DNA from: Cucumis sativus
Taxonomy: Eukaryota > Streptophyta > Magnoliopsida > Cucurbitales > Cucurbitaceae
Assembly: GCF_000004075.3 (NCBI RefSeq)
Contig: NC_026657.2
Coordinates: forward strand, 29,358,408-29,422,407
Direction: 5' to 3'
Length of the DNA: 64,000 nucleotides
The position numbers were made by a program, and so were the translations under genes. Shown piece by piece: positions 3,457 to 63,733 of this stretch (its first letter is position 1; each line of letters begins with the position of its first letter). Below the pieces are notes generated by a model, which ran no database searches, was not told the origin of the DNA, and saw nothing but the letters and a program-made list of their open reading frames with translations.

Positions 3457-5730
3457 ATGGTCGCCCTCTCTCAAAAAGCCATCTTTGTTAACATTCTTCT
3501 CTGTTTCATTTTAAACATAGTCAATGCAAGAATCACCAGACACTACAAGTTTCAAGTAAGCTTCATTCTTCACCCTTCACCCTTTCCAAAAACAACACAC
3601 ACAACTTCTCTTCTCATTATTTCTCAAATTGTCTTGCAGATACAACTGCAAAATGTAACAAGGCTCTGCCAAACAAAAACGATCGTGACTGTCAACGGAC
3701 AGTTTCCTGGGCCAAGAATCATCGCTAGGGAAGGCGACCGTCTCTTAATCAAAGTCGTCAATCACGTCCAAAACAATATATCCCTACATTGGTATATGAT
3801 ATGACAATGATCCCTAAAGTTTAAACGAATGGGTTAGAGTACTTGCATTAACTTTGTATATACATTCTTAGGCATGGAGTGCGGCAGCGGCGGAGCGGGT
3901 GGGCGGACGGGCCAGCGTACGTGACCCAATGCCCAATCCAAACAGGGCAGAGCTATGTGTATAACTTTACAGTGGACGGGCAGAGAGGGACATTGTTTTG
4001 GCATGCTCATATCTCATGGTTAAGGTCCACATTGTACGGTCCAATCATCATTCTTCCAAAAACTCACCAGCCTTACCCTTTTCCTCAGCCTTTTAAAGAA
4101 GTTCCCATCATATTTGGTGAGAACCTGTTTGAAAATTTGAAACAAATATTGTTTATTGGGTAAGTTAAAAGTTGAAGAGAATTGATTTCGGTTCATTATA
4201 CAGGGGAATGGTGGAAGGCTGATACAGAAAATGTCATAAACCAAGCCATGCAAAATGGTGGTGCTCCAAATATTTCTGATGCTTTTACTTTTAATGGCCT
4301 TCCCGGTCCATCTTATAATTGCTCTGCTCAAGGTCACTTCTTCACATTCGTGCTTAACTTCCCTTTTCTATTACTTTCTCAACTTTCCAAACTTTATGCT
4401 TGAAAACACATTTGAAAAACTATATGATTATCCATTTTTCCCTGAGCAAAAGGGTTGATTTTGCATGGGAAATTGTGTATTGCAGATACCTTCAAGCTCA
4501 AGGTAAAACCAGGAAAGTCCTATTTACTCCGATTGATCAATGCCGCACTCAACGATGAGCTCTTCTTCAGCATTGCCAACCACACCCTCACTGTCGTCGA
4601 AGCCGACGCCGTTTATGTCAAGCCCTTCAAAACCGATGTCATCTTGATCACTCCAGGACAGACCATGAACGTGTTACTCCACACCAAATCCAACTCTCCC
4701 AATGCCACATTCCTCATCGCCGCCCGTCCCTACGCCACCGCACCCGTGGCCTTCGATAACACCACCGTCACTGGCCTCCTCGAATACGAACCCACAAAAT
4801 CTCTGTTGAACAAGAACAAGAAACTCCCTCTTCACAAACCGGTCCTCCCCCGGTTCAATGACACGAGTTTTTCGATCAAATTTAATGGGAAGATTCGGAG
4901 TTTGGCGAATTCAAAATTCCCAGCGAAAGTACCGATGAGGGTTAAATGGAGATTCTTTTTCACGGTGGGTTTGGGGTTGCTGCCGTGCCGTAGGAACCGG
5001 TCTTGTCAAGGCCCCAATAACACGAGGTTGTCAGCGTCCATTAACAATGTGACGTTCGTGCAGCCGAACACGGCTCTTCTACAATCACACTTTTTTAACA
5101 AATCTAATGGCGTTTACACTACTGATTTTCCGGCCAATCCCCCGATCAAATTCAATTACACAGGTAAGCATAAAAATCTCTCTGTAGTATTGAAATGTAG
5201 CATTATTAGAAACGTTTTAGTTTGGTCAAATTGAAGTTTGTGTTCGATTTGAATCTAAATTTTTTTAAAAAATAGTAACGTTATCTAAAATTTGTAATTG
5301 GTTGGCACGTGCAGGTACGCCGCCGAAGAACTCGATGGTGAGTAGCGGAACGAAGGTGGTAATGCTACCATACAACTCCGCCGTGGAATTGGTACTGCAA
5401 GACACGAGCATTGTGACAGCGGAGAGCCACCCGCTCCACCTGCACGGCTTCAATTTCTTCGTGGTAGGTCAAGGCATCGGAAATTTCGACCCGAACAAAG
5501 ACCCGCCCAAATTCAACCTTGTCGATCCGGCCGAGAGGAACACCGTCGGGGTCCCGTCCGGCGGCTGGGTAGCGATCCGGTTCATCGCTGATAACCCAGG
5601 GGCTTGGTTTATGCACTGTCACTTGGAAGTTCATACCAGTTGGGGTTTGAAAATGGCTTGGATTGTTGAGGACGGGAAACTCCCTAATCAGAAGCTTCCG
5701 CCGCCGCCTTCCGATCTGCCCAAATGCTAA
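3457..5730 (+). CDS. Laccase 1 (LAC4/11/17-type multicopper oxidase)
   Basis: Six exons: 3457-3555, 3640-3791, 3872-4116, 4204-4332, 4486-5163 and 5315-5730. Together they give 1719 nt and a 572-residue protein, typical for a plant laccase. It has a signal peptide (first ~24 residues) and three cupredoxin domains. All four copper-ligand motifs are present: HWHG (split by intron 2), HAHISW, HPLHLHG and HCHLEVH followed by an axial Leu. Laccases are secreted, oxidise monolignols with O2 in the cell wall and drive lignin polymerisation. The closest remembered relatives are the lignin laccases LAC4, LAC11 and LAC17. Many N-x-S/T sequons fit secretion. Two small departures from the family consensus are [10 protein letters not shown] (usually RQLRSG) and [10 protein letters not shown] (usually NPGVW). 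Exon 5 carries a miR397-type target site. The orthologue number is not certain. Confidence 0.9.
4535..4555 (+). promoter_or_regulatory. miR397-type target site in laccase 1 exon 5
   Basis: This 21-nt stretch encodes part of LINAALNDE. It is largely complementary to miR397 as I remember it (UCAUUGAGUGCAGCGUUGAUG), with about three mismatches plus one G:U pair. miR397 is known to cleave laccase mRNAs at this conserved place. The pairing is weaker than in laccase 2, so regulation of this copy is less certain. Confidence 0.55.
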
Positions 5731-13208: not shown

Positions 13209-15836
13209 TTAACACTTGGGAAGATCAGCCGGCGGCGGCGGCAGTTTCTGGTTAGGCTTTGGGCCGTCGAGTACTATCCAGGCCATTCTCAGCCCCCAAC
13301 TTGTATGCACATCCAAATGGCAATGCATGAACCACACCCCTGTTTCATCATCCAAAATATATACAAAGTTTACTTTGATATTGAAACCTTTTTAGGTTTT
13401 AGAAATAAAATTGAAATCTCGTAACTCAATCATTTAAAAATTCAGAATGAAAACTCAATCTAATCTCACCTGGGTTATCGGCGAAGAAACGGAAGGCGAT
13501 CCAGCCGCCGGCAGGAACGCCGGCGGTGTTCCTCTCAACAGGATCAACGAGATTGAAATTAGCCGGATCCTTATTAGGATCAAAATTTCCAAAACCTTCC
13601 CCTACTATGTAGAAATTAAATCCATGAAGATGAAGAGGATGACTCTCCGCCCCTAAAATACTCGTCCCCTGCAAAACCACCTCTACACTCGCATTAAACG
13701 GCAACACCACCAAACTCGTACTATTACTCACCAACGTATTATTCGGCGGCGTTCCAGTATAGTTAAACGGAAACACCGGCTTCACCGGAAAATCAGTCCT
13801 GTAAACCCCATTAGCTCGGCGGGAGAAATACGCCTCCAAAATCGCCGTCGATGGGAGGGCAAAAGAGATATTATTAACAGAGGCAGCAAATTTCGTGCCA
13901 TTGGGACCTTGACACGTAGCGTTTTTAGGGCAGGGGGCAGTTCCCAGTCCGACGGTAAAGAAAAATTGCTTATCCACCGTTTGTGGGACGTTAACAGGGA
14001 ATTTAGCGGTGGCTAGAGATCGTAGTTTTCTGGAGAAATTGGTGACGAAATTGGTGTCGTTAATGGCGGGGAGATTAGGAATTAAAGTGGTAATTGGAGT
14101 GGGCAGCGGCGAGTGGCCGGGGCCGTAATGGAGGATTCCGACGGTGGTGGAATTGTCGAAAGTGCCCTGGCCGGTGAAGTAAGGGCGAGCAGCCATGAGG
14201 AAAGTGGAGTTAATGGGGAAATTAGGATTGGTTTTGAGAAGAACATTGGAGGTTTGGCCAGGACTGAGTAATACGACATCGGTTTGAAAGGGTTTGATGT
14301 AGGAAGCGTCGACGTCGACGACGGTGAGAGAATGGTTGGCGATGGAGAAGAAGAGTTCATCGTTGAGTGCAGCGTTGATTAGTCGGAGTAAGTATGTGTT
14401 TCCCGCCTTCACCTTTAACTTGAATGTATCTTTTAACAATAATATAACAAAATGCCATTAATTTAAAATTGATTTTATATCTAATACATATCAATTACTA
14501 CATTGCTATTAGGTATTAACTTAAACTAAAATTAGTTTAGTGAGCTTTTAAAAAATGGAGTCAAACAAAGTAAGATTAATAGTGAGAGTACCTTTAGAAG
14601 AGGAATTATAGAGAGGGCCGGGATGTCCATTAATGGTGTAAGCATCAGAAACATTAGGTCCTCCTCCTGTTTGCAGAGCTTGTTGAATTACACTCTCTGG
14701 GTTCACATTAAACCATTCTCCTACAAAATAAAAAAACAACCTTGTTTAGATCCATATCTAATCCAATCCATTATCCCAAAATAGAAAAACGAGCTCACCC
14801 AGAATAATTGCCACTTCTTTATGGGGGTTCTCAAAAGGATACGATTCATTTCGACGAGGGAGGATGATTATGGGACCATGAATTGTAGCCCTAAGCCACG
14901 AGATATGGGCATGCCAAAGCAAAGTCCCCCTTTGGCCATTGAGTGTGAAATTGTAAGTGTACGATTGACCTGTTTGGATCGGACATTGGGTCACGTAAGC
15001 TGGTCCGTCAGCCCACCCAGTTTGCAACTGGCGAACCCCATGCCAATGGATGGTCACATTCTCAGCCACGTGGTTGATCACCTTGATTAGGACTCTATCA
15101 CCTTCTCTGGCCACCAACGGTGGCCCTGGAAGCTGATGGTTTACCGTTAAGACTCTCACTGTGTGCCTTAATTTTGTCACATTCTGGTATCTTATCTATA
15201 ACATAAAAACCCAACCATTTAGAAGTTATTGTATAATTCCAATAAGTTACATAAGCTAAAGTACAACATATTTAAGTAACACTAAAAAGAAAATTTTAAT
15301 AAGAGTATAGACATAATAGTGTTATATTGCGAATCACATATATATATAATAACACTTAATATTTATATTACAATAATGATCAATATAATAACTCTTAATT
15401 TTAAATTACTTTCATCCCTTCCTTATTTGTAATTCTAAGCCTTTATATGCATGCATGTTTGGATTGATTTTATAAGAGATTAAAATGTCAATCCAAACAA
15501 CTTGTTATTAAAGACATCAGTAAAGCAAGAACAGATAATAATAACGCATTACTAACCAAAATAAATTCTTAAAAAGAAAGAAAGAATGCAAAAGCAGAAA
15601 CCAAAATGTGGGTATAAACCACCAATGAGGAATCAAATTAAAGAAAACCAAAGATTTCTTTTTGCTGTCAATTAAAAAAAGAAAAGAAAAAGGAAAGATA
15701 CATTGAAAGTATAATGTCTGGTTTTTGCAAATGCAAGCTCTGGCAAGAAACATGACAGAACACAGAGAAAAACAGCCAAAGCTGCCATTGATGATGAAGA
15801 AGGCAATGGACGAAGAAGAAGGTGAAAGGCAGCCAT
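13209..15836 (-). CDS. Laccase 2 (LAC4/11/17-type multicopper oxidase)
   Basis: Five exons on the minus strand, in transcript order: 15836-15702, 15195-14799, 14720-14592, 14429-13470 and 13339-13209. They give 1752 nt and 583 residues. It is a secreted plant laccase with N-terminal hydrophobic signal, HWHG, HAHISW, HPLHLHG and [12 protein letters not shown] copper motifs and the LPKC terminus, expected to oxidise monolignols in the cell wall. Exon 2 (397 nt) equals the sum of laccase 1 exons 2 and 3 (152 + 245), so the HW/HG intron is absent here. The YTG/TPP intron of laccase 1 is also absent, while an intron at NPG/VWF is present only here. A second in-frame ATG, 16 codons downstream, could be used and would still leave a signal peptide. 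Exon 4 carries a good miR397-type site. Confidence 0.9.
14360..14380 (-). promoter_or_regulatory. miR397-type target site in laccase 2 exon 4
   Basis: On the mRNA strand this 21-mer differs from perfect complementarity to miR397 (as remembered) at only two positions, one of them terminal. It encodes LINAALNDE, the conserved place where miR397 cuts laccase transcripts. Confidence 0.7.
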
Positions 15837-35641: not shown

Positions 35642-37924
35642 TTACTCGACAGAAGGTTTCCATGTAGAGATGGCATATATAATTCGACCCTTCCAACCCT
35701 GAAGTAACCATCTGCTATCTTCATCAATCAAAAAATCTCTGTGGTAACTTGATCGTACCTTTTCAACTGCTCTCTCAAAAATCTCAGGAGCAAAAGGCAG
35801 TTGCACAAATCCAGCCCTCATGATCCGAAATTGCCACTGCTTGTATGTTTCCGGTCTTTCCACTCTCTCCCATCCCTCACATGCTATAACATTTAAAGCT
35901 TCCCTGCCAAAAATCTCTCTCTCCAACAGCATTCTCTCGTAATCCTCGCGAGGTACAACGGTTTCAAGCATATCAAAAATAGCAGAAAAGTGAAACAAAG
36001 CCTCTCGGAATCGAGTAACAAAGAAAGGGGCATTATATGCCCCATTGACAATGCCACTGATGAATAAGTTAGGACTAATTTTGTGAACCAATTTAAGAAC
36101 AGTATTTCTAGCACTCTCTGTAGAAACGCTCTCATCAAGTAAATTTTTTGCTCGATACAAACAGTTAACAACTAGGAACTCGTCTTGATCAATATTGAGA
36201 TCTTCAACAGTAACAGATTCCCATTTTTTTGCTATAGCATTATACTCGAATGGCACATTGAAAGTCTCTGCATAAGCCGCCAAACGACGACCTGTCTCCT
36301 CAACTCTCTCTGCAGGACGAAACCCAGGCTGGGGAAATTCTATTCCAGTAATTCGAAGCTTCGGAGGTCCACCTTTTCTCCATGACAATCTCTGGATTAA
36401 AGTAGGCCACTGGAAACCGTAAAGGATACCAAAATCTATGACATGAAGCCTAGTTGCGCTTTCTGCAGCAATCATTATAGTCCTGTTTGAAGTAAAATTA
36501 GAGATCTTTCTAAATGGGCATGCAGCAAGGTACAAGTGGTAAGCTTTCAGTACATCAGCAGCAGATGTCCTTTTATTAATTAGACCTTTGTAAATCTGGC
36601 TACCAGTACCTGCCAACCGTGCCTCCAGACCATCAGCAAAACAACTAGCTAACCTCTGACTTCCATCACCAAAAGGAGAAGCATGTTGTCTGACCTGCTT
36701 TAGAAGTTCACTGGCATTCCTATGGTCATCAGCTGCAACAGCTTGAGCACAGCTAATTAGAAGAGTTCTCAAATCCACAACCTCTTTTTTCGCACTCTGC
36801 TTCTTCCGACGACCCCTACCACCATTAGACACTTTTAGCTGCCCACTCTGCAGCATGCTTTTGATTTTAGCATCATGTAATTCCTGTCGAAATGAAACTA
36901 ACCGTTCATGTCCCTCTCCAGCACTACAAAGCAACACAATATCAAACATCTTAGATCGCAGAGGCGACTCTGCAAATACGGCTGCTTGCTTGCTGCTTCT
37001 CTCTTCTTCCAAATCTCCATTCTCATCATGAGGATTCTTTCTACCACGTGATTCAGGTGAGAAAACATTCCTCTGATCCTTTCTAGCTGCCTTCAAATAT
37101 ATTTGGCTCGTACCCTCATCGGGACCCTGAGTTGCTGACCCATTTACCTCAAAATCAAGACACAATTTGTTTCCACCAGGTAAAAATTTGCTTGCCTCTT
37201 CAAAGCCTTTTTGAAACTGCCAAATCGATTGGCTTCTGTTATTAGGCTCAGGAACTTGAATTGTATTATTAGAGAAGTCCACCCACCCATCACCCCCACT
37301 AATTACACTATTTGAGGAACTATTAGATGATGGAGATATGGTATCACCTAAAGCGCTTCTGATTTGAAATACATCTTCACTCAGAGTTTGAGGATCATCA
37401 TCGCCACGATAAGAAGTACTACTGTAATTACTCAGGTAATTACTACTATCTCCACAAAGTTCTTCGTTCAAGCTATCGGTGTATTGATTGGCCAGAGATC
37501 TATTTACCTCAGGGGAAGGAGGATACTTTTTTCCGAGGACCTCATAGAATGATTTCTCAGCAGCTTGAAGATCCAAAGAATCTTGAAGCATGCAAGTCTT
37601 GTCCTCCATATCTTCTTCCATGAGAATTTGATTTATGAATGTCAAAACAGCATCCGAAAAATCGCAATCTTCCAGATAATCTTCCTCATGACTTGCATCA
37701 TTAGAAGATGAGGTTCTAATGCTGGAACTTGAGGCTATGTTGCTCGGTGATGGATTAGGGAGAAGGCAATCAAATTCTTGAAAGTTATGACTAAAAATGG
37801 TATTCTGAAATCTAGGCCTGCCATGGGTGCCCTCTTGTGCTTGAATCCCAAAAGGACGATTATCTATGTACCGATCCGACTTTCTAAGTTCTCTATCTGG
37901 GGTCATTACGATATTGCTAGTCAT
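35642..37924 (-). CDS. SCL9: GRAS transcription regulator, SCL9/SCL14 (LISCL) type
   Basis: Uninterrupted 760-residue frame. The C-terminal ~375 residues are a complete GRAS domain. It opens with LRTLLISCAQAV (leucine heptad repeat I, about residue 385), then LHVIDFGILYGFQWP (VHIID motif), LRITGIEFPQPGFRP, FLVVNCLYR, NGAYNAPFFVTRFREAL (PFYRE region) and a final SAW region ending GRIIYAISTWKPS. The long acidic, Ser/Asn-rich N-terminal half and the basic GGRGRRKKQSAKKEV just before the domain are typical of the LISCL subfamily, whose N-termini activate transcription. SCL14 works with TGA factors in xenobiotic stress responses. SCL9 (At2g37650 from memory) lies near AS1 and FHY1 in Arabidopsis, so SCL9 is the best positional guess. 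A 5' untranslated intron is likely (about 38,780 down to 37,983), joining a GA/CT-rich leader exon to the coding exon. Confidence 0.88.
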   Translation of the reverse strand: MTSNIVMTPDRELRKSDRYIDNRPFGIQAQEGTHGRPRFQNTIFSHNFQEFDCLLPNPSPSNIASSSSIRTSSSNDASHEEDYLEDCDFSDAVLTFINQILMEEDMEDKTCMLQDSLDLQAAEKSFYEVLGKKYPPSPEVNRSLANQYTDSLNEELCGDSSNYLSNYSSTSYRGDDDPQTLSEDVFQIRSALGDTISPSSNSSSNSVISGGDGWVDFSNNTIQVPEPNNRSQSIWQFQKGFEEASKFLPGGNKLCLDFEVNGSATQGPDEGTSQIYLKAARKDQRNVFSPESRGRKNPHDENGDLEEERSSKQAAVFAESPLRSKMFDIVLLCSAGEGHERLVSFRQELHDAKIKSMLQSGQLKVSNGGRGRRKKQSAKKEVVDLRTLLISCAQAVAADDHRNASELLKQVRQHASPFGDGSQRLASCFADGLEARLAGTGSQIYKGLINKRTSAADVLKAYHLYLAACPFRKISNFTSNRTIMIAAESATRLHVIDFGILYGFQWPTLIQRLSWRKGGPPKLRITGIEFPQPGFRPAERVEETGRRLAAYAETFNVPFEYNAIAKKWESVTVEDLNIDQDEFLVVNCLYRAKNLLDESVSTESARNTVLKLVHKISPNLFISGIVNGAYNAPFFVTRFREALFHFSAIFDMLETVVPREDYERMLLEREIFGREALNVIACEGWERVERPETYKQWQFRIMRAGFVQLPFAPEIFERAVEKVRSSYHRDFLIDEDSRWLLQGWKGRIIYAISTWKPSVE

Positions 37925-47278: not shown

Positions 47279-47351
47279 CGCCGTCTGTGGGAATCGAACC
47301 CACGACCACATGGTTAAAAGCCATGCGCTCTACCGGCTGAGCTAAGACGGC
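47279..47351 (-). tRNA. tRNA-Lys (anticodon TTT)
   Basis: A 73-nt cloverleaf on the minus strand. The acceptor stem GCCGTCT pairs with AGACGGC, followed by discriminator G. The A-box region is TAGCTCAGCCGGTAGAGC. The anticodon loop CTTTTAA gives anticodon TTT for lysine. The T arm is GTGGG TTCGATC CCCAC. There is no intron. It appears intact and is a nuclear-type Pol III gene; a short T run for termination is not obvious just downstream. Confidence 0.96.
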
Positions 47352-49372
47352 TTGACGGTAAAACAGTAAAATTGCAAAATAAAACTGTTTCTATTTCTTA
47401 AAAAGAGAAAGGGCAACATGATCGTACTGTGTGGTTGGTTGTTTGTGAGGTGGTGGGTGGATGTAATTTTAGTTAGAGGGCGGCGGTGTTCCGGCGAAAA
47501 TGGGCGGGTGAGAGTGTCCCTTTCGAAATGGGAGGCGATGTTCAATCTCGGAATGGTTCAGTGTTAGTCGGCTTTTGGCAGACTGAAACTGATTTTGGGT
47601 TAAAGAAGAGGATCCCCCTCAATTTCACGGCAGCTTTGAAACATCAAATCCCACTTTCCTTTTCTTTTAATACTATTTTCATAGATACCCCCATTTTACT
47701 TTCTACATTTCTTTTTCTTTTTCTTTTGTTTTGTTGTTATTGAAATAAATAAATAAATAAATAATAAAATGGGGGGGGGGAATGAAAAAGAAAAGAAAGG
47801 AAAGAGAAGTTGAGAAGATAAAAGGGAGGTAACGCATCACTGACAAAAGCAGAGGAGAGGGGGAGAAGGTGAAGGTGGTACAGATTTACAGAGAAAAAAG
47901 AAAAAGGAAAAAAAAGGTCGAGTCTCTATCAAACTCCGTCACCTCGGGCCGCGAAATCCGGACTACAGTCCACTCTCTCTATCCTTCCCATTTCCAAAAA
48001 CTCTCACAAAATAAAAGAAAAAACATCCCATCTTCATTTTCATTTTCATTTTCGCTTCTCCGGGGCCACCGCAACCCAACCATTCCTACCTCCCCTCTTC
48101 TCCTTTCTCCCTCTTTCCTCTTCTAATTCTGCGCCCTACCCTCTTCCCTTTTCTCTCCCTCCCTAAACTACCTTCTTGCCTTCAATTTTACGCCTATAAT
48201 CACAAGACTTTTTAATTCTTTTTTTAAAAAACAATTTTCATAATTCAATCTTTTTTAAGTAAAATTTAAATTTATTTCTTAAATTTAGAATTTTTATAAA
48301 TTTAAATCTAAAACCAATAATTGTATAATTTAAATATCAACCTTTTATCCTCAAACTAATAAGTATATTAATTTAAATTTTAAATTTATATAAATATATA
48401 AATTTGAATGGAACTTTTTTAAAATAACAAAATAAATTAAAATATTTACTAGTTATAATAAAAGTTTAGATTCTATGACCTATATCAATAACTATCAGTA
48501 TTTGTCGTAGGTTGTAAATATTTTGTAAAATCTACCGTTTTAAAAAATTCTCCAAAATTTAAATTTAAAAAGTATGGAATTAATATTTGTTAACTCTTAC
48601 CCGTATTATCTACCAACAGTTTTAAATATTGTTTGTTAACTTTAAAATTTTATTGGCTAAAAGAATTGCAACTTTTTTAGAAAAAAATAAATATGAAAAC
48701 TAATTTTGTACTTGCAAGATTTATTTTCTTAGGATACCATAGTTTGGAGGTTAACTTTATAAATTCAAAAGTCACCACGTTAATGCTATCTACAATGGCT
48801 GTCTTTTTTACAGTATATTTACTATTTTTTGACAATAGCATGTACCTCAATTACAAACTGTTTTCTGTATTCAATATCTCCATTTCAAAAACAAATTTTA
48901 TAGTATTGTAATTTTTTTAGTGCAATAACTGTGGAAAGAAAAATTGAACACTTTACTTTTTTATTAAAAGACATATGCTAAACTCATTTTAATGTTATGT
49001 TAATGCTACAAAACTTAAGAGTTAAAATTGAACTATTATGGGCATATTTAATCATATGAGTAGAGGAACCAAATTGATTAGAGTAAATGAGTGGGAGTGT
49101 GGAGAGTGGCGCAGGTTAAGCGGTGAAACCAAGCTTAAAAGCTCTATACGCCATTAAACGCCAAGCAACACCCACTCTCTTCTTCCCTTTCCCTTTCTTC
49201 TTTTTTTTTTTTCCTCTGTGCAGCAGTTTCTGATTCTCAGCTGTTTCGCTCTGTCTCAATCGTCCCTTCTGGCTTTATACATATATATGTAACAGTGACT
49301 AAACGAAAGCCTAATGCTGCGTGCTGTGGCCTCTGCCCCTTGCCCCCAGTGGAACACCCACTCTTTCCTCTT

Positions 49373-49403
<31 letters not shown>

Positions 49404-50246
49404 TCATTATATTTACCTCTTTAGCCTTTTCAAATTCCATCCTTCCCTTCCTCCTTCCATTCTCTCTCCTTTTCTAGCTTCTTAAACGAATTGGGTTTCC
49501 TTTTCTCTCTTTGTTTCTACACATTTTGATTCTCTTTTGGCTGTGGATGCTCGTACTTACCACTCCCAGTGTATTTCCTCTTCTCTCTTTTCCCTTTTTT
49601 CTACTTTTTATTGTGTTCTCAAGGACTGAAATTGTTCTGATGGTTTGGTTGTAGTCCTTTTTCGAGAATGGAAATTCTGGGTTGCTGTTTTTGTTTAATT
49701 CTGTTGAATTTTGCTGATTTTTTTTGGATGGGGGACAGTTTTTGGTGTAGAATTCAACTGGGTTTCGTTTGAATTTTGGTATTTGTATATTTATATACTG
49801 TTTGGTTGTGTCTGGTTTGGTTTGTTGTTTAGTTGAGGTTGAATTTATCTTTCTGTTATCTTCATGGCACAGTGAAGGAACTTCTTTTGTGGAATGTATG
49901 AACTGTGAAGTAAATTTTGGCCAAGTTTTTGTTATGGATTGCTGTGTTTAGTCAGTCTTTTCCCTGAATTTTATTTCCATTCTGTTCTCTTCTTATGATC
50001 AGTCCTTTTATCTTACATATTGAAATCATTTTTTAGATACTATAAAGAAGAAGGCTCTGGGAAGCTAATAAATGAAGCACATATGAACTATTGGTTTGTC
50101 CTTGAAGGCTTGAATTTAGCAGTGAGTGGATGGAACAATGCTTAAAAATTGTGGGAGAATATAGTAGTAGAAAGAAGAAATTTTACTTTGAACTTACTTG
50201 TAAGGCTATACAATAAATAATAATAATAATTAAAACAACTTACTTC
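47352..50246. other. Region between tRNA and the AS1-type gene
   Basis: 47,450-48,170 is richer in GC and pyrimidines than its surroundings, with an (AAAT)n patch and a G10 run (47,769-47,778); it looks like a leader or promoter but no coding gene follows. 48,200-49,060 is AT-rich with nothing seen. From about 49,100 a promoter- and leader-like stretch with (TC)13 leads toward the AS1-type frame. No R2R3 MYB motif was found in any frame here. Confidence 0.5.
49377..49402 (+). repeat. (TC)13 microsatellite in the AS1-type leader
   Basis: CT-type run in pyrimidine-rich sequence about 850 bp before the AS1-type ATG, as is common in plant 5' untranslated regions. Confidence 0.85.
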
Positions 50247-50879
50247 ATGGCCACTTCCAATGGGGGATTTCTTCAAACTGATTCATCCACTTCACCACCA
50301 TCTCTTCCTCCTTGGCTTTCCAACTCCAACGGTGGCTCTTCGCTCCGACCGCCTTCCCCATCAGTCACCTTAACATTATCTTCCCCCACAGTTCCAGCCT
50401 ACACTCCCATCCCCTGGTTGCAACAGCCAGACAGAATGCCAGAAAACATGCCTCTTGTATTAGGCAATTTAGCACCTCAAATGTCAATGCCATCATGTGG
50501 TGGTAGCCTCTTTGCTTCTGAGCTCGTCGAGTGCTGCCGAGAGCTCGACGAAGGCCACCGTGCTTGGGCAGCACACAAGAAGGAAACAGCATGGAGGTTA
50601 AGAAGACAAGAGTTGCAATTGGAGTCGGAGAAGGCGTCTCGGATTCGACTGAAGATGGAAGAGGTTGAAGGGAAAGTAAAAGCTCTTAGAGAAGAAGAGA
50701 AGATTGCTTTGGAAAGGATTGAAGCTGAGTATAAGGAACAATTGGCAGGGTTTAGAAAAGATGCTGAGGCTAAAGAACAAAAGTTGGCTGAGCAATGGGC
50801 TGCTAAGCATATGAGCCTTACTAAGTTTCTTGAGCATATGGGATGCAGGACTAGAATTGCTGAGTCAAGTGGGAGGTGA
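50247..50879 (+). CDS. AS1: AS1/PHANTASTICA C-terminal half, MYB domain absent
   Basis: Single-exon 210-residue frame. It matches the C-terminal half of ASYMMETRIC LEAVES1/PHANTASTICA, the R2R3 MYB repressor that acts with AS2 to silence KNOX genes in leaves. The match covers [12 protein letters not shown], the Pro/Ser-rich linker with [10 protein letters not shown] and IPWLQQPDR, and then the conserved coiled coil. The coiled coil runs [69 protein letters not shown] (about residues 90-205). Full-length AS1 is about 365 residues with the two MYB repeats in the first ~125. Here the frame begins exactly at the internal Met of the remembered 'VVMANSNGGFL' stretch, and the sequence upstream has no MYB or linker homology. 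A promoter- and leader-like region is still present. It may be a truncated gene, a truncated second copy, or an assembly deletion. The coiled coil alone could still dimerise. Confidence 0.8.
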
Positions 50880-53010
50880 GAAAACCACTTGCCACAGTTT
50901 CAAGTTTTGTGATTGCCTCTATGAATTTCTTCATGGGAAATTCTCTTTCCTTTTCAATCTCTCTTTTCTTTATATTTTTACTTCCATTTTGTATCCATTG
51001 ACATCTGAAATTATGCATCAATGTCATCCTATATTTGCTTTGTAATTGATACTCTTGCAAGCAAAATGTCAAGTATTTATTTTGATTCTGCTTAACAAGT
51101 CCCCTCACCTCTTTTAATCTTACTAAACATTTGTTTAGGATATGACATTAGAAATAGCATTGAACAAACTCGAATTTGAAGCATTAACACAACCAAATCT
51201 GAGTTGACTCAAACCTTTATAATCAGTCCCAAATCAACTAACTTGTTTTACTTTACAAAAGAGAAGATATACCAATGAAATTTCATCGACGATGTGTCAG
51301 AAATTTCAGAAAATATATTAGTAAAAAACTTATGTGAACTTAGGTAATATCAATTATCACATGAGTGATCAATATTATTGATCAATAACCGACTATTTCC
51401 TCATTCACATTTTAATATGAATAGCTAGAATAAAGACTATCTCGAGGTAGTTAGCGTATACTCTATTACTCTATTTTTTTTGGAGTTGAAAGTCTTAAAA
51501 TTATGGAAATATGACGATATTAATAACAATAAAATAAAATGTAAAGTTTTATCTAAGTCAGTAGAATGCCAATGTGTATGAACACCAATTAAGAAACACT
51601 ACACAACCACTTTCATGATGTAATTTATAATTTAAAATCTAGAGACATTTTGTGGTTGATAGGGTGGTTGGTCATATTGGATACCACATTCAGTAACCTA
51701 TCTTTGAAATATTGATGTTCTCACTGTATTGGATGCATAATTTAATTCCTACCTAATCTTTTATAATAACATATTTAAATGCTACAAATATTAATTAAAC
51801 ACAAAAGACCATAGTTCTAATGTCGTATCTAAGAAATAATGCATTATGGTTGTTGGTTGCACATTCAATACTTTATGTAGTTAATTTTATTTAGTGAAGA
51901 AGTAAAACTCAGTATCAATTGTGGTCTAAAAACAAATTCGTATCCGATTCTAAGTTATAAATTTTGCCACATAATTTATCACACTGGAGCAACGTTTCAA
52001 ATTTGCTACATAGTATACTAGATATCTACATGGGTGGAACTTAAGATTGTGGACCATATAAACGACTTAGGGTAGCTTGAATACCAAGTCCACTGTTTAT
52101 TTAAATACACGTGGACTAGACACACATTTTCTTATAATCACATATCAATTTCCTTTAATTCTATTATTTTCTATCAACTTTATATTCAAAAAATGGATAA
52201 TTACAAAATGTAATTATAGGTTTCAAACCAACTTAACCCCACAAAAACTGAATGACTGACGGACTCTCTGAATGACTGACGGACTCTTACTTATAGATAT
52301 TGAACTCAATTTGAACCTTTACTAAATGAATTATCAATTTTGTGAAAAGAAAACAGATAGCTAAGGATGAATCCTAATAGACAACGTAGACTAACTAATA
52401 TATATGGAGGAGGAAGAGAGAGAGAGAATGAGGTGGGCCAGGAATGTGAAATGGGCCTGGGCTGTTGCAAACGAGAGTCATTTTGTTACAATTCACCGAC
52501 TCTAAGCATTGCATGAGACAAAAAATGATATGAACTTTATAAAATTGAAAGGAAAAGAAAAAAAAAAAAGGAACAATAGTTACGCAACCGAAGAAGATAC
52601 GATCAGGATCAACTACTTCGCTTCGAAGGGTTTCTGCAATTTTCTTTTTTGTAATTTTCAACGACTTTGGACGCAAATTTATTCCTTAATACTTACCTTC
52701 TTCGATGAACTTTTCTGTGGACGATGTTTATTTCTCTCTACGTTGTTTCTGGTTCTGAAATTTTGTGAATACACCCAACTTTTTTTTTTATGCCAAGAGG
52801 GACAAACAAGATAATCTCAGTCTTGAATTTCACTCCTACGAGATTGAATGATCGAGGTGGAACGAATTGGAGGATTGAATTTTAGGGTTTCGGATTTCTT
52901 GTTGAGGAGTAGTTGTTGGCTGGAGTTGAAACCTGGGGAGTACAACCTCTCGGTTACGGCGCTGTTTTTGTTGCGCTGACTGGCTGGTGCCGTATTGGCG
53001 CTCTCGGAGA
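50880..53010. other. Intergenic, AS1-type gene to PRT6
   Basis: AT-rich spacer with no gene recognised. A 20-bp perfect tandem duplication lies at 52,248-52,287. From about 52,580 the sequence becomes the PRT6 promoter and 5' leader. Confidence 0.5.
52248..52287. repeat. 20-bp perfect tandem duplication
   Basis: Two head-to-tail copies of CTGAATGACTGACGGACTCT, about 725 bp upstream of the PRT6 start codon. Confidence 0.92.
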
Positions 53011-56000
53011 ATGGATGAAATGGATATTGGCTCCCCTTCTGAATCTGCGCCACTTAAGCCGCGTGATCGAATTCTACGGGTAATGCTAGATTTTCTTTTT
53101 TCATTTCTTGTTTGTACATTGTATTTGAAATACGGCGCTGATTTAGATGGGGTTGTTATTTTTTAGTCCCATGTATTCTGTTGCTCATCCTGCAACTAGT
53201 CGTTTATGTTGTTGTGTTACTTTGTAAACTCGTTTATCGTTATCTGTTATTGGATTTTCTGTTCAATTTCGACTTGGATTTGGGATTGTGTAGTGTGTCG
53301 ATTAAATTATGGGTATCATCGCTTTGCCTCGTTTATAATTCTGATTCTCTTTATCAGCGGCTTGCTGTACTTGGAGTTCCTGATGAGCTATTGGATCAAC
53401 TTTTTCGCGGTCTAGTTACTTTTGTTAAGGACAACAAGTTTCTTATACCGGAGCTGGTATCTGCAATTTTGCCTACTGATGTCGAAGTGGTAGAAGTTAT
53501 ACGAGATGCTATACCTGGGGCAAAAAAATCTCTAGCAGGCCCAACCATGAAAGCTAATTTCCGTGAAAGCATGATGTGGTTACAGTGGTTGATGTTTGAA
53601 AGTGAACCAGCTTATGCTCTGAAGAACCTGTCAAAAATGAGTGTTGGCCAGCGTGGTGTATGTGGTGCTGTTTGGGGACATAATGATATAGCTTATAGAT
53701 GCCGAACTTGTGAACATGACCCAACTTGTGCAATTTGTGTCCCTTGCTTTCAGAGTGGAAACCACCAGGATCATGATTACTCCATAATTTATACAGGTGG
53801 TGGTTGCTGTGACTGTGGTGATGCCACGGCATGGAAGCGGGAGGGGTTTTGCTCAAAGCATAAAGGTGCAGAACAAATACAACCACTTCCAGAAGAATAT
53901 GTTAAATCTGTAGGGCCTATACTTGATGCACTCTTCACATCTTGGAAAAACAAACTCTTATCTGCAGAAGATATTAGCGTGGAAGACCCTAAATTGAGTG
54001 ACCGTGTTACAGAGCATAAAAAGGTTGCAAACGAGTTAACATTTGCTGTGGTTGAGATGCTTTTAGATTTCTGCAAGCACAGTGAAAGCTTACTCAGCTT
54101 TGTTTCAAAGAGAGTGATTTCTTCAGCTGGCTTGTTGGATATTTTGGTGAGGTTAGAGAGACTGTTAACTGATGGCGTAGTGAAGAAAGTCCACGAGTTA
54201 CTTCTTAAATTGCTGGGAGAGCCTGTATTTAAATATGAATTTGCAAAAGTTTTTTTGAATTATTATCCTACTGTTATCAGTGAAGCTATAGAAGACAGTA
54301 GTGACCACGCTCTTAAAAAGTATCCACTATTGCCAACTTTCTCAGTGCAGATATTCACTGTTCCAACACTTACTCCTCGTTTGGTGGAGGAAATGAACTT
54401 ATTGTCTATCCTTTTGGGATGCTTAGAAGATATTTTCATTTCTTGCGTAAGCGAAGATGGTCGCTTGCAGGTAAAGCACCCTTATTTTCAGCTCTGAGCA
54501 CACAGTCAATTGTTGCCTTGCTTAATGTGTTTTTAATAGAGGATAGATGTGGTATCTTCACTTATTTAGACTCAGGCAACTAAGTACCATTGAATTTTGT
54601 AATTATAATTGAGTTATTAATAAGTATCCTCCCCCTTAAGGACTTCCTATGTTAACAACCACAACAAGAACAATTTTCAATTAGTCTTTTTGGTATAGTT
54701 CTGCCTTTTGCTTTCATATTCTTAATCTTTTTCCTTTTCCTTTTCTTTTCTTATCCAGAAAAATGATTTTTCCTTTCCGTATATAGGTTGTAAAGTGGAG
54801 TAATTTGTATGAAACCACCATCCGTGTAGTTGAAGATGTCAGATTTGTTATGAGTCATGCTGTAGTGCCCAGATATGTAATCTATCAGCAGCAGGATATC
54901 CTAAGAACTTGGTTGAGACTGCTGACTTTTGTGCAAGGAATGGATCCTCAGAAGAGAGAAACAGGCCTCCATATAGAAGAAGAAAATGAAAATGTCCATT
55001 TGCCTTTTGGTTTAGATCATTCTGTTGCTAACATTCATTCTCTATTGGTGAAGGAAGCATTTTCTGCTGCTAGTAGTAGTAGTTGTGAAGATTCAGCTGA
55101 TGCAATGTATTTCCAAACGTACAAGCAGAACGTAGACGACATAGATAGTGTTAGACATGCTAAAGTAGGACGTCTATCACAGGACAGTGCTGCATGTAAT
55201 GTATTGGGAAAGAGTAGTGCATCCACATCTGCATCAAGAGTTGATGACGTGTGTTCAGATGCAATATCATCAACTATTATGTGGCTGACTTACGAGTGTT
55301 TGAAGATTATTGATAGTTGGTTGGGAACTGAAAATATATCTGGAAGCATTCCAAACATGCTTGATGAGAGCATTAGTCTAGCCCCTAGTTGCAAATTTTA
55401 TTCATTGAGAAAAACGTCTGCCCTGGCATCAAAGAAATTGTCATACAAGATGGAGAAGGGTAAATTTGAGAAGCTTTCTAGAAGAAGCAAATACCATAAT
55501 AGACAATATTCCTCTCGTATGTACAGTGGCCTTCAAATGAGTATTGACAATGAGCATGGTATAAGTCTTGGAGAAGACAACCACTTGATGGATGTGACCA
55601 ATGATACAGTTACTGATGAAGACTATGCCATGGAGATCGATGCTCTACATTTCCTAAGCTTATCTTCTTGGCCAAACATTGTTTATGATGTTAGTTCACA
55701 GGATATATCTATTCACATCCCATTACATCGGCTACTTTCCTTGCTTTTACAGAAGGCGTTGAGAAGCTGTTTTAGTGAATCTGGGGTGCCAAGTGCAACA
55801 GGTGCTAGTTCCTCAAATTTGTCATCTGAATATGTGGACTTCTTTAAAAGTGTTCTTACAGACTGTCATCCATTCGGTTTTTCTTCATTTGTTATGGAGC
55901 ATCCTCTACGCATTAAAGTTTTTTGTGCTGAGGTTAATGCTGGAATGTGGCGGAGGAATGGAGATGCAGCCCTATTGTCATGTGAGTTGTATCGATCGAT

Positions 56001-59000
56001 CCGGTGGTAAGTTAACTTTTAGGGAACAAAGCACTTATGTTCTATCTTCTCATTTTCACACGGTTTAAGGAAACTTGCTTCTTAATGGCTTTGCAACAGG
56101 TCAGAACAATGTCTGGAGCTTGATCTCTTTCTATTGCAGTGTTGTGCGGCAATGGCTCCACCTGATCTTTATGTCAGTAGAATTTTAGAACGCTTCCGAT
56201 TATCAAACTATCTTTCACTGGATGTTGAACGCCCTAGTGAGTATGTACTCATCTATTACTTCGACTTGGAACATATTATTTTCTAAATTCGGGTGCAATT
56301 CAAAACCCTTGTTTAATGCTGCTAGGAATTATTGATTATAATATCCATATCTATCTATATATTCATAATTTGTAAAGAAACCTAAATTTCATTGAATTGT
56401 TAAAAATTTGCAATAATACAGAAATCCAAATTTCCACACAACATACTCGAATACTCCATGTACATCATTCATTTGGATTTTTTTAAACAATTTTAAGAGC
56501 TTGGTATTATTCTTTTCGATCGAAGTTCTTTATTCTCATTTAGGCCTCCTTTGTGTGCTTGATTTTTTGTATGGCCTTGGGCATTCTTTCATTTTTCTCA
56601 ATAGAAGCTTAGTTTCTCATTAAAATATTAATAATAACAATCATAGCAACAACTCTCCCTTTATATTAAGCCGTAGTTTAGACATTCCTTCATGCACAGA
56701 GGTGTTGAAGATACTTATTAGGTTATAATACATTTGACAATAATAACTTATCATAGAAGTAACGTTAACATTCATCTCCGTTTTTTGGTATTTGAACTAC
56801 TCCTTATAAAAAGTTCTTAAATTTTTGCAATTGTATGAGATCAAAGGAATACGTTCTGTAGATGTGATAATTCTATGAGACAGCAAAATACATCACAAAA
56901 GTGTTGAGAAAAAGATGGAGCAATATATACTATTTGTCAAATTATTTGGGTGTTGATAATTGTATTTTAAACAAATTTATATAATGGTTGGGAGCGGAAT
57001 TGCAATCACGTTGAACTATATGTACTTTATAATTATCCCTTTCAGAAAGCAAATGTTTTGTTTTTAAAATTTTCACATAAGGTATGAAACAACTATTCTT
57101 CAGGTACGAGCCTATTTTAGTGCAAGAGATGCTCACATTGATCATACAAGTAGTCAATGAAAGGAGATTTTGTGGACTTACAGTTGCTGAAAGCTTGAAG
57201 AGAGAGTTGATTTACAAGTTGGCAATTGGAGATGCTACTCATAGTCAACTTGTAAAAGCACTCCCTCGTGATCTTTCCAAATGTCATCAGCTGCAGGAAA
57301 TTCTAGATACAATTGCTGTCTATTCCAATCCCTCTGGATTTAATCAGGTTATGCCCTTCACCAGTTTGGGATTTCTGATACTTATTTTTGCTCATTGTTA
57401 TTTCTCAAGGTATAAATTTGTTTCAGGGGATGTATTCTTTACATTGGAAGTATTGGAAAGAGTTGGATCTGTACCACCCTCGTTGGAGTTTACGGGACCT
57501 GCAGGTTGCTGAAGAACGATATTTGAGGTCATGTGGTGTATCTGCTTTGACCTCACAGCTACCTAAATGGACAAAAATCTATCCTCCTTTTAGAGGATTG
57601 GCTAGAATAGCTACTTGTAAAACAGCCCTTCAATTCATTCGTGCTGTACTGTTTTATTCTGTTTTCTCTGAGATATCAACTAAATCACGGGCTCCAGATA
57701 GTGTCCTGTTAAGTGCTCTGCACTTGCTAGCGTTGGCATTGGACATCTGCTTTCAGCAGAAGGAATCAAGTGACCAATCATTTGATGCTCCAGATTCTAT
57801 TCCTTTGCTTCTTTTTGCCACCGAAGAAATTGACGAGGGTTTAGCATATGGTTTTGGCAGACAAAGCTTATTATCTCTTCTTATTTTGTTAATGAAAATG
57901 CACAAGAAAAAGGAAGGTCGAGAAAACTTGTTGGAGGCTGGAAGTTGCAACCTGTCCTCTCTGGTTGAAAGCTTGTTGAAGAAATTTTCAGAGATTGATT
58001 CTCATTGCATGGGAAAAGTTCAGCAACTTGCCCCTGAAATTCTTGGTTACTTGTCTCAATCTGTACCTACTAGTACTACCAGTAGACCGACCGAAACTTC
58101 TGATAGTGAGAAGCGGAAGGCAAAGGCTCGAGAGAGACAAGCTGCTATATTGGTAAGATGTTTTCTTTTTGTTAAGTACCTTTTTTTTTTGTTTATTTCT
58201 ATTTTTTTAAAACGGAAAATGAGCCTCTTTATTAATACTAATAAATGAGACTAAAGCTCAAAGTAATGAACCTTTTCTTTCAAAGAAAAATATTGCTTTC
58301 CATTTGATAGATAATTGTCTTGTATTTGGAAGGCTTCTTTTTGTTCTGACCTTGTAAAGGTTAAGTTGAAGTTAAATTTTCTTCGTAGATTGTAAATTCA
58401 TTGCCCATTGCCCTTTTATGCCTTGTCTACCTTGGTAAACTATGGCTACACTTAAACTTGGGGATGATGTCCTTTTATGCCTTGTCTACCTTGGTAAACT
58501 ATGGCTACACTTAAACTTGGGGATGATGTTTATTGTACTTTCTCTTCCAAATGAACTTCATTCTGAACTCCTTGGGTGGTTGTCTGCAGGAAAAAATGAG
58601 AGCCGAGCAATCAAAATTTTTGGCCAGTGTTGATGCCTCTGTGGATGACGATGATACAGAATTTGGGCAAGAACCTGAGAAACCCAATGTCAGTGACAGT
58701 GCTGAACAATCTGAAACAGTTTGCTCGCTTTGCCATGATTCTAGTTCCAGTGTTCCTATTTCTTTTCTGATTCTTTTGCAGGTATGCAGTTAGTTGTTTG
58801 TATTGTCTGTCAACTTCATTTTATTTCCCCATTTGGTTTCTTTTCATAACTTGATACATCCTTTCCAGCTTTCTGTTCTGATTTTAAAATTATATCTTTC
58901 TTAAACAAGAAATCGAAGCTTGTGAGTTTAATTGATCGAGGTGCTGTATCATGGGATCAACCTTACTGCAGAGATGAACATACCTCAACAACGTCAAAAA

Positions 59001-62000
59001 GGGATCTTGATCAATCAGGAGTAAGCACCTCCTCTGCAGGTTCAGTAGTGATTTCATCACCACAGTTTTCAGAGCTCATTCAGAATGCTGTAAAAGAATA
59101 CACCAATCATGGACTACCTGGGGAAGTTGGCGCTTTCCTGGATTTTGTGAAGTCTCATTTTCCTCCCTTACGAGACATCCAAGTGCCTGGTACATCAAAT
59201 GTTAAAGGAGAAAAGATAATATTCAGCTTTGATACTTTGGAAGAAGATATTTATTTATCTGTTTGTAAAGAAATGCATGATACTCTGCATTCTAAATTCA
59301 ACGACGATGAAAAAATTTCTAAAGTTGCAAGTGGAGGAGATTCTAGGTCTGTGCTGCATGTAAAATATATAGCTGCTCTATCAAGGGAACTGGCAGAAAA
59401 TCATTCAACTTCTGAAAGCGCTCGTAACATTCACATGCCTGTTGAATCTTTACAGCCTACCATATTGAATGAAATTGGTCCTACAGATTGTGATGGAATT
59501 TATCTTTCTTCTTGTGGGCATGCTGTGCATCAAGGATGTCTTGATAGATACTTATCTTCATTGAAGGAAAGGTATCCTTTTCAACATCAATCCATTTTTA
59601 CTCACAACAGATGTTTGTTTAATTGTTTTTATTTTTCGTTGCAATTTATGGATTTTGTCATTTTTGGCCAACCTTAATATCATAGTCTGATGTTTCTAAG
59701 TTTGAGTTTTGTGGCATTATAGAGCAGAGGGCAAAAGCAGGAAAAACTAGTTGTAGGAAAAGGGAACTTCTTGTAGCAATTTGTGAATTCCTTTCTTTAG
59801 AAAGAGAAAAGTGATGGTTAAATTTTGTTCTTCAACGGATTGAGAATTGAATTATCCCTTAAATAGACTGTGGGTAGTTTGAGTGACTAATAGTATATGT
59901 TAGCTGTGTCTGTTTCCTCTTCTTTTATCATATATTTTGACTGTAACAGTAGTTCTAGGGCCTGGGAGGGTTTACCAGCACTCTCAAACTTCCTGGGTGT
60001 TATCGTTCTAACTTTGAAATTGTAATTGTGATATCTTAACTTTTTGAGGATCAAATCAATTGCAAGTATTAGGGAAACATCCTTACATTCCTGCCTCGTT
60101 TACATGTACTTGGGCCTTTTTAGGGCAAGGTCTGAAGAGGACTTTGTGCCCTTCCACTGTTGTATAGCTAGAAATAGGACATTATAATAACCTTGCTTGA
60201 ACAAGATTCATTCTATAGGTTGTCTACGTTATCCTTGAGTTCTGAGAAATAAGGTATCTTTAGTTGTATGTTTAAGTGCAACATTACGTATTTTCGTAGA
60301 CTGCTTGTGGTACTTTTGGTTCCTTCTGTTCCAATATATATTTTAATGTCAAACATACGTTCTTTTGTTGTACTTTCAGGTTTGCTCGTAGAATTGTATT
60401 TGAAGGAGGGCATATTGTTGATCCTGAGCAGGTATGTGCTTGTCTCATGTAGTTCTTCTTTCTGTGTTTTCTTCGAATAAAGAGCCAGAAATTTTAATTA
60501 ACCTAATCATAATATCAATCATCTTCATTGAAAGTTCGGTATCCCAACTTAAGTCAAAGTTTGATGCTTCAATTACCTGATCAGATTATCCTCTCAATCC
60601 AAACCCAGAAATTTTACATCCAAAAATTAACGTTGTGGCTTTTATCTAGTTTTGTAGTCTCTGTTCTAAAATATTCTCTCTCGACCTTATGTATGATTGT
60701 ACATCACAAGATCTAGATGCTTCATGAAAGCAGGCATATACATGGTTCTTATTAAATGGAGCTATATGTTTCTTCAAGTAGTAATCTTCATTAGTCTTTA
60801 TTATGCAGATTTAGTGGTTAGGATTGTAGGTTTTTCAGAGGCGTTTAGTAAGCACTAAGCAACTACAAACCATTTGTTTATAATCAATTGTCAAGTCTAT
60901 ACTTGGACTAAGATATAATCCGTTTGATATTTGGATGACACCTAGCCTGGTGCTAATCATCCCAACTTCTGATCACTTGTATGCTTGACCATGTATTGAA
61001 ATAGTACTATCTTTTGAATTTTAGGGACAGGATGATGGTATGGTTTGTTGTTTTATACAGGTTCATAGTTATATATATTTATATAACTATAATAAGGAAA
61101 TTTGGTTTTATGTAACAGGGAGAATTCTTGTGCCCGGTGTGCAGACGTCTTTCAAATTCCACTTTGCCTGCATTTCCTAGGGAATTTCAAAAGATTTGGA
61201 GCCCGAGGACGAGTTCAGTTGGGACTCTTTCTCATGTTTCAGGTCATCTTAATAAATCAAATGAAAGAGTGAATCCACTTTATATTCAGGAAGCAGTAGC
61301 TCTCTTGCAATCTGCAGCTAAGGCTGTTGGGAAGAATAACGTTCTTAAAGATATTTCTGTACACAGACATAAGAAAGTGAGTCGCAATCTCGAAGCTGTT
61401 TCACTTGTTCTGTCTAAGTTGTATTTTTCTTGGAAACAGGATAAGTTAATAAGCTCCTCCCGGGTTAATCCATCAATTCTTATGTGGGACACTCTCAAGT
61501 ATTCCCTCGTATCAATGGAAATTGCTGCTCGTAGTAAGACTGATATGAATCCCAGTATTGGCCTTAATACATTGTATAAGGAGCTTAAAACTTCTGGTGG
61601 TTTTGTGTTGTCTTTATTGCTAAAAGTGATCCAAAGCGTTAAGTGTGAGGATTCTCTCCTTTTGCTTCAAAGATTATGTGGTATTCAAAGGTTTGCAGAT
61701 TCCATCTGCTCTGGAATGTCAAATGAAAATGCTAGTGACTCATGTGGACGAGGTACAACTCTAGGGCCTAGAAGCATTTTTTTCCTCTTAGTCTTTCTGG
61801 GTTATTTTGGGTGCTCCTATATTGGATTTTAGTTGTTTCTTGCATTTTAGGGACTGAGCTGATTGGATAGTTGAAATCTTGTTGAATGTGTTTCTAAATG
61901 TGCATCCATATTCTGTTTAGGGCAAGTCCTTTATGAAGTAGTTGTCGAGGATATTAGATACAATGGCTCTTTACCCGTACATGAACTTCCAATAAATGCT

Positions 62001-63733
62001 AAGATAGATTCCCATCTGGAACCCTTTCTAGGAGTTTTTCTATATATATCTTTAACTGTTCAACTTATAGTTTGCTAATTGATGCTATTGCAGGTATCCT
62101 CCACATCTTGACCAGTCTTCGTTCAGAATTGCCACAATTTGATAGCCAGTTCTTGAGCAGAGGATCTGATCCTGTTATTGCCCATGATCCATTCGCATCG
62201 TTGATGTGGGTTCTCTTTTGCCTTCCTTTCCCCTTTTTATCGTGTAGGGAATCCTTGCTTTCCCTTGTGCATATCTTCTACCTAGTTTCTGTGACGCAGG
62301 TATGTATGAGGCCTTTAAAGTTCCAATGTTGAGTATGTTTTACCAAATCTAGATTTGTAATTTTTAAGTATTTATTTCAGGCTATAATCACATATTTCAT
62401 CAAGTCTCAATGGGAGGTAGATGGGTTGGGTTCTAGTGATTGCTTGATCACTGATATCTGCAAAATTATGGGAGAATCTGGATATGCCCGACAGTATTTT
62501 GTTTCAAATTACACAGAGCCATCTTGTAATGTTAAGGATACAGTACGTAACTTGACTTTCCCTTATCTTCGGAGATGTGCATTACTTCTACAACTACTAA
62601 GTTCTTCTGCACGAGTGCCAATTTTTGATGGAGAGACTGCTTTGGAAACATATCTTGTGGGTAACAATATGATTGACAACATCACAGTGGAACTCAACGA
62701 AGTTGAGAAGCTCCAGAAAATGTTTGAGATTCCTCCATTGGATATTGTTCTTAAGGATAGAACCTCGCGGTTACTTGTTTCAAAATGGTTTTGTCATTTT
62801 AATAAAGAATTTGAATTTCAGAGATTTAAAATTATAAAGCACTGCACACCTGCAGTAGCTTTTCAATTAATTCGTTTACCTCATGTCTACCATGATCTAT
62901 TGCAGAGGTATGTTCGACATCTATTGAATTTCTCTGTTTTTTTTGGTACCATACTGAAAGTTTGGCTAACAAATTTTCTGCTTGAACAGGTACATAAAAA
63001 AGCGGTGTGCTGACTGCAAACATGTCATTGATGATCCTGCATTATGCCTGATATGTGGTAAACTGTGCTCACCAAGCTGGAAATCATGTTGCAGGTCTTT
63101 TTGCCTTTTATAAATAATTGTACTTTCAGATTTGACTTAGATGGGATGCAGTTAACATCATCAAATGTTTTATTTGTGCTTTACTGTTAGCTATGAAGTT
63201 CTGAAAGTTAATTATGCTTGTCTCCAGAGAAAGTGGATGCCAAGCTCATGCAAATATCTGTGCTGCCGGCACTGGTGTATTTTTGCTGATTAGGGTATGT
63301 CAAAATGTCCTTTAATCTTGTGTTTAGGGATCCTTCTGTGGTACATATTTTTTTTCCTGCTGTGGGTTCACTAATAAGATATCTTTTTCTTTTGACAGAG
63401 GACAACAATTCTACTGCAGAGATCTGCACGTCAGGCTCCTTGGCCATCACCTTATTTGGATGCTTTTGGTGAGGAGGTAAATCGTCATCAACATTTACTT
63501 TTATTTACTTGATTATATGATTGCTTTATGGTTCAAGGCATGATTGTAAACTATGATGGAATGATGATGGAATCTCTTTATCATTTCAAATCTAGTATTC
63601 TATAGCATTTTTTTTGGTCATATTCATATTCTGCCTTAATATTTAGTTTCCTCTCATGCTGCAGGATATTGAAATGCGTCGTGGAAAACCATTGTATTTG
63701 AATGAAGAACGTTATGCTGCCCTATCATATATG
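53011..63733 (+). CDS. PRT6: PRT6, N-degron E3 ubiquitin ligase (3' end outside window)
   Basis: Sixteen exons were placed: 53011-53079, 53358-54470, 54787-56006, 56100-56240, 57104-57347, 57427-58152, 58590-58781, 58910-59571, 60380-60431, 61119-61752, 62094-62299, 62381-62907, 62990-63094, 63228-63294, 63399-63476 and 63665-63733. They total 6105 nt, or 2035 codons, open throughout. PRT6 recognises N-terminal Arg and other basic residues and ubiquitinates the protein. In plants it destroys Met-Cys-starting ERF-VII factors, VRN2 and ZPR2 when oxygen and NO are present. The UBR box (about residues 122-192) is rich in Cys/His, with RCRTCEHDPTCAICVPCF and GGGCCDCGD. The RING-type domain spans exons 8-10 (SSCGHAVHQGCLDRY ... 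CPVCRR). The C-terminal Cys-rich UBR-family domain starts at KKRCADCKHVIDDPALCLIC. The frame at ERYAALSYM meets a GT; known PRT6 proteins continue with a short last exon, which must lie beyond 64,000. Confidence 0.92.
58412..58529. repeat. Perfect 59-bp tandem duplication in PRT6 intron 6
   Basis: Two identical adjacent 59-bp units (58,412-58,470 and 58,471-58,529), each beginning CCTTTTATGCCTTGTCTACC and ending GGGGATGATGT. They lie in the sixth intron, which splits exons 6 and 7. The second copy ends about 60 bp before the acceptor at 58,589. Confidence 0.95.

Follow-up and report, generated by a model that had tools for sequence, protein, structure and literature searches.

What is an AS1 gene that carries no MYB domain? 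The question arises from a 64-kb stretch of Cucumis sativus DNA (hereafter the window, with positions counted from its first base), in which a first-pass annotation read one open frame as the C-terminal half of AS1/PHANTASTICA, and both MYB repeats and the following linker as missing. Such a locus could encode a microProtein-like regulator, be a dying copy or come from a deletion in the assembly.

Results

An intact C-terminal half of AS1

In the open-reading-frame list the frame is intact from ATG to TGA and encodes 210 residues, beginning with MATSNGGFL and ending with AESSGR (Table 1). It has a GC content of 48%. None of 500 first-order Markov sequences modelled on positions 49000-51500 contained a frame of at least 210 codons, the longest reaching 155. 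The frame was compared by BLASTP with a hand-entered sequence of A. thaliana AS1, which also served for the tblastn searches and column counts given below. Identities were found at 134 of 214 positions (E 6e-85), residues 1-201 of the frame corresponding to AS1 residues 156-363. The whole C-terminal half is retained, up to the normal end of AS1, and the proposed origin of the frame at an internal Met of AS1 agrees with this alignment. Against Pfam, the frame gave no Myb match and only a coiled-coil match below threshold. No relatives were found in the PDB at E values up to 1, no match was obtained by tblastn in the plasmid collection, and no relative was confirmed in the viral_contigs and genome_contigs collections.

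Nothing in the frame corresponds to AS1 residues 1-155. When the whole 64 kb was searched on both strands by tblastn, with the hand-entered AS1 and with the full-length paralogue described below (L002), the best match to the N-terminal half had an E value of 0.93 and lay elsewhere in the window. Both MYB repeats and the linker are therefore absent from the window, as the first-pass annotation had stated. For this assembly, the evidence that the locus carries the C-terminal half of AS1 without its MYB half is strong.

AS1 genes commonly have their coding region in one exon. Here the coding region is a single uninterrupted frame, with no AG acceptor ahead of residue 40. An upstream MYB exon spliced onto the frame, for which the first-pass annotation had allowed, would make the gene split but complete. 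The sequence upstream is a leader-like region only, which would suit such a gene, but AG dinucleotides are lacking from 50204 until 50364. An acceptor at the AG at 50204 would precede the in-frame TAA at 50214, which is reached after ten in-frame codons upstream of the start, and an acceptor at 50364 or beyond would cost residues 1-39. Because of this AG gap and of the TAA, an upstream MYB exon cannot join the start of the frame canonically, and we rejected it for canonical splicing in this assembly. Furthermore, with the exception of L002, an AS1-type MYB segment was found in neither the window nor the genome. A split but complete gene is thus extremely improbable.

The upstream region and the junction

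The leader-like region noted earlier upstream of the frame could be placed, together with its (TC)13 run. Splice sites were scored with an approximate matrix. In this rough scan several acceptors competed, 50002 ranking first and 50036 fifth, and no donor scored well; a leader intron is our guess. Four ATGs precede the start codon (50072, 50083, 50130 and 50138), one of them in frame and stopped at 50214, and 15 would be counted from 49200 if the leader were wholly unspliced. The start codon itself lies in a weak context (T at -3, G at +4). Together, the four upstream ATGs and this context would make translation less efficient if initiation is not leaky. The putative leader also contains a 20-codon upstream frame, perhaps a uORF native to AS1.

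An AT-rich stretch occupies the expected place of the MYB half. A search for its origin with positions 50030-50260 returned only this segment itself. The stretch contains a 9-bp direct repeat, which is weak evidence because repeats of such length arise in 3% of mononucleotide shuffles and in 10% of Markov sequences made from 50182-50246. It possibly hints at a deletion scar or at end-joining filler.

Table 1. Features of the window and the full-length paralogue (window positions unless a contig is named).
Feature	Position	Strand	Remarks
Laccase-like multicopper oxidase gene	4455-5231	+	tail to tail with the next, about 8 kb apart
Laccase-like multicopper oxidase gene	13429-15180	-	
GRAS gene	35642-37924	-	760 aa
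tRNA-Lys (TTT)	47279-47351	-	
Pyrimidine-rich leader-like region	49200-49600	+	read from the sequence
(TC)13 run	49377-49402		
Last part of putative 5' leader	50038-50180	+	after AG at 50036
Upstream frame	50083-50145	+	20 codons, MNYWFVLEGLNLAVSGWNNA
AT-rich stretch	50181-50246	+	66 bases, 20% GC, abuts the start codon
9-bp direct repeat	50191-50199 and 50237-50245		AACTTACTT, 46 bp start to start
AS1 C-terminal frame	50247-50879	+	210 aa
Long predicted helix, coding part	50505-50837	+	frame residues 87-197, AlphaFold2
20-bp tandem repeat	52248-52287		ctgaatgactgacggactct, two copies, read by eye
PRT6-like N-recognin gene, frames	53181-63013	+	begins some 2.3 kb beyond the AS1 frame
UBR box (Pfam), in frame	53181-54494	+	
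PRT6_C (Pfam), in frames	61128-61829 and 62426-63010	+	
L002	C3:16505805-16506866		intact 354-residue gene, two Myb stretches; same chromosome, 12.9 Mb from the AS1 frame

A divergent paralogue carries the only AS1-type MYB domain found

The genome (226.6 Mb, 88 contigs) was searched three times, with the MYB half among the queries, and the best candidates were scored (best 115 of 154, 150 of 157 and 135 of 135). The frame found a full-length match at its own locus only. Among the candidates scored there was one AS1-type MYB domain, that of L002, and a MYB half relocated or left on an unplaced contig was therefore rejected. The next-best match to the hand-entered A. thaliana AS1 among these candidates was a general MYB, with 48% identity over about 84 residues. 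The other MYB matches in the genome look like ordinary MYBs; a second AS1-type MYB domain, with an identity of at least 70%, should have ranked ahead of them.

L002 and the window frame have a homologous C-terminal region in common, and L002 alone carries Myb stretches. Over residues 1-122, L002 is 72% identical to the hand-entered A. thaliana AS1. In BLASTP, L002 and the frame shared 75 identities over 194 positions (39%; 45% by the measure of the alignment tool, and 50% over frame residues 91-201), and L002 has neither MATSNGGFL nor the IPWLQQ part. In 163 ungapped columns of the C-terminal half, A. thaliana AS1, L002 and the frame were all identical at 62 and all different at 30. A. thaliana AS1 agreed with the frame against L002 at 46 columns, whereas L002 agreed with A. 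thaliana AS1 against the frame at 12 and with the frame against A. thaliana AS1 at 13. From these counts, the frame is much closer to A. thaliana AS1, and L002 is the divergent member. The search for a full-length AS1 elsewhere in the genome, which the first-pass annotation had suggested, thus yielded one AS1-type gene, but this gene is a divergent paralogue and not a second copy of the window gene. Since the sole AS1-type MYB found sits in this paralogue, the window frame appears to be a remnant of canonical AS1.

In the available part of a Populus study, AS1 proteins of 12 species fall into subgroup I, present in all species, and subgroup II, present in woody dicots only (PMC12439027). By extension, the window gene may belong to subgroup I and L002 to subgroup II.

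In Arabidopsis, too, a GRAS gene presumably lies near AS1. The possibility that the two cucumber AS1 loci are duplicate segments was tested through the paralogues of the window GRAS gene. It received no support, because the two best paralogues are on C1 and C6 and the GRAS match nearest L002 (C3, 17.15 Mb) has 32% identity and lies 0.64 Mb away. In the PRT6-like gene, the frames between the UBR box and PRT6_C gave no Pfam match.

Predicted structure and constraint

AlphaFold2, run on a two-sequence alignment, predicted a single helix of 111 residues, most ten-residue blocks of which had a pLDDT of 95-98; residues 1-86 were of low confidence (overall mean 73.8, pTM 0.41). By homology, the helix would be a coiled coil. 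The long coiled-coil helix, described as well preserved in the first-pass annotation, is thus retained as a predicted helix, with pairing by homology.

In the same 163 columns, private changes numbered 12 in the frame and 13 in A. thaliana AS1 (8 and 6, respectively, in the coiled-coil part alone), and 62 of the 74 sites common to A. thaliana AS1 and L002 were kept in the frame. These comparisons suggest no clear acceleration or relaxation of the C-terminal half, and the constraint may wholly predate the deletion, which is undated. Neutral decay of the frame was then simulated in 400 runs with assumed rates and model. At 6.5e-9 per site per year, 63%, 41%, 8% and 0.25% of frames were intact after 1, 2, 5 and 10 My, as compared to 37%, 14%, 2% and 0% at 1.3e-8. 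Since simulated neutral frames mostly break within 1-5 My, the intact frame means either that the loss is recent or that the frame serves a purpose.

Discussion

We propose, with a probability of about 0.42, that canonical AS1 of cucumber lost its MYB half and that the product of the remaining half pairs, tunes the complex as a microProtein would and is kept by selection. A deletion would have taken everything from the start codon to the end of the linker, including both MYB repeats, so that the AT-rich stretch now connects leader-like sequence with an intact C-terminal half. The product, if made, would have an estimated mass of about 23 kDa, start at the former internal Met and form an AS1-type helix or coiled coil without a DNA-binding domain. 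Its most likely partners would be the L002 protein or AS1 partners such as AS2. The repressor complex would be lowered or tuned, and selection for pairing would keep the frame intact.

According to the accessible passages of PMC3521718, AS1 interacts with itself in BiFC, and also with AS2 and HDA6. The interaction with KYP involves mostly the N-terminus of AS1 and not its C-terminus in the part of PMC9958104 consulted, so that a C-terminal form should largely be without KYP recruitment. A product of the C-terminal half would still pair, without binding DNA and with little recruitment of KYP left, and the complex built on the L002 protein would become weaker or be tuned. Pairing with the L002 protein is not assured, because the matching parts share only 50% identity.

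MicroProteins such as LITTLE ZIPPER derive from transcription factors, and 210 residues exceed their typical length. Like them, the window frame keeps the interaction domain of a larger transcription factor (the interaction being assigned by homology), and its DNA-binding domain is gone. A full-length AS1-type MYB relative, the L002 protein with its two Myb stretches, is available as a target, which supports a possible microProtein role. Compared with the ARP family (AS1, PHANTASTICA, ROUGH SHEATH2), the frame has in common the whole C-terminal half with its long predicted helix; it differs in having neither the MYB repeats nor the N-terminal linker and in beginning at an internal Met. A precedent from the same leaf pathway is KNATM, a KNOX protein without a homeodomain just as the frame is without the DNA-binding domain of its family, which forms heterodimers with KNAT1 and BELL proteins (passages of PMC3521718). 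KNATM belongs to a different family, however, and was tested by ectopic expression.

A dying copy is almost as probable: the MYB half may have been lost recently from a gene whose function the paralogue covers, and the frame would then be intact for lack of time. The weak start context, the upstream ATGs and the presence of an intact L002 are in keeping with this, and between 14% and 63% of simulated neutral frames survive 1-2 My, depending on the rate. Nevertheless, 210 codons have been preserved without a disabling mutation or clear acceleration, and under the assumed rates the loss would have to be younger than roughly 5 My. We consider it unlikely that the deletion is an assembly error or private to the line sequenced, with a full canonical AS1 at this place in other cucumber plants. 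AS1 is usually complete and conserved, and leaf diversity is attributed to AS1 regulatory networks rather than to protein changes, in the available passages of PMC12652363; the usual completeness would favour such an explanation. However, the window contains no N, the missing part was found on none of the 88 contigs among the best candidates scored, and the junction consists of 66 AT-rich bases and not of a simple join. Cucumber 9930 v3, if it is the same assembly, was moreover built from SMRT long reads (excerpts of PMC6582320).

A more far-reaching version of the proposed microProtein-like function is rather doubtful. Canonical AS1 would have turned wholly into a selected coiled-coil protein without DNA binding, L002 would have taken over DNA binding, and KNOX silencing would rest on a split between two genes.

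Among the matches listed in the literature, judged by titles and the beginnings of abstracts, we found no report of a cucurbit AS1 lacking its MYB domain, and the portions of PMC7117775, PMC5891604 and PMC12157137 consulted contain no description of one. AS1 and MYB91 are unmentioned in the accessible main text of the cucumber R2R3-MYB survey (PMC3479133), and the passages available from the CsIVP paper (PMC7117775) give no gene identifier for CsAS1. What is new here is that sequence comparison among the candidates scored turned up a divergent paralogue as the sole full-length AS1-type protein, and the possible pairing partners of the fragment change as a result. Papers on 'CsAS1' would need to specify the gene used. 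In a crop in which canonical AS1 is without its DNA-binding domain and a divergent paralogue alone is whole, nature would have provided a test of what each half of AS1 does.
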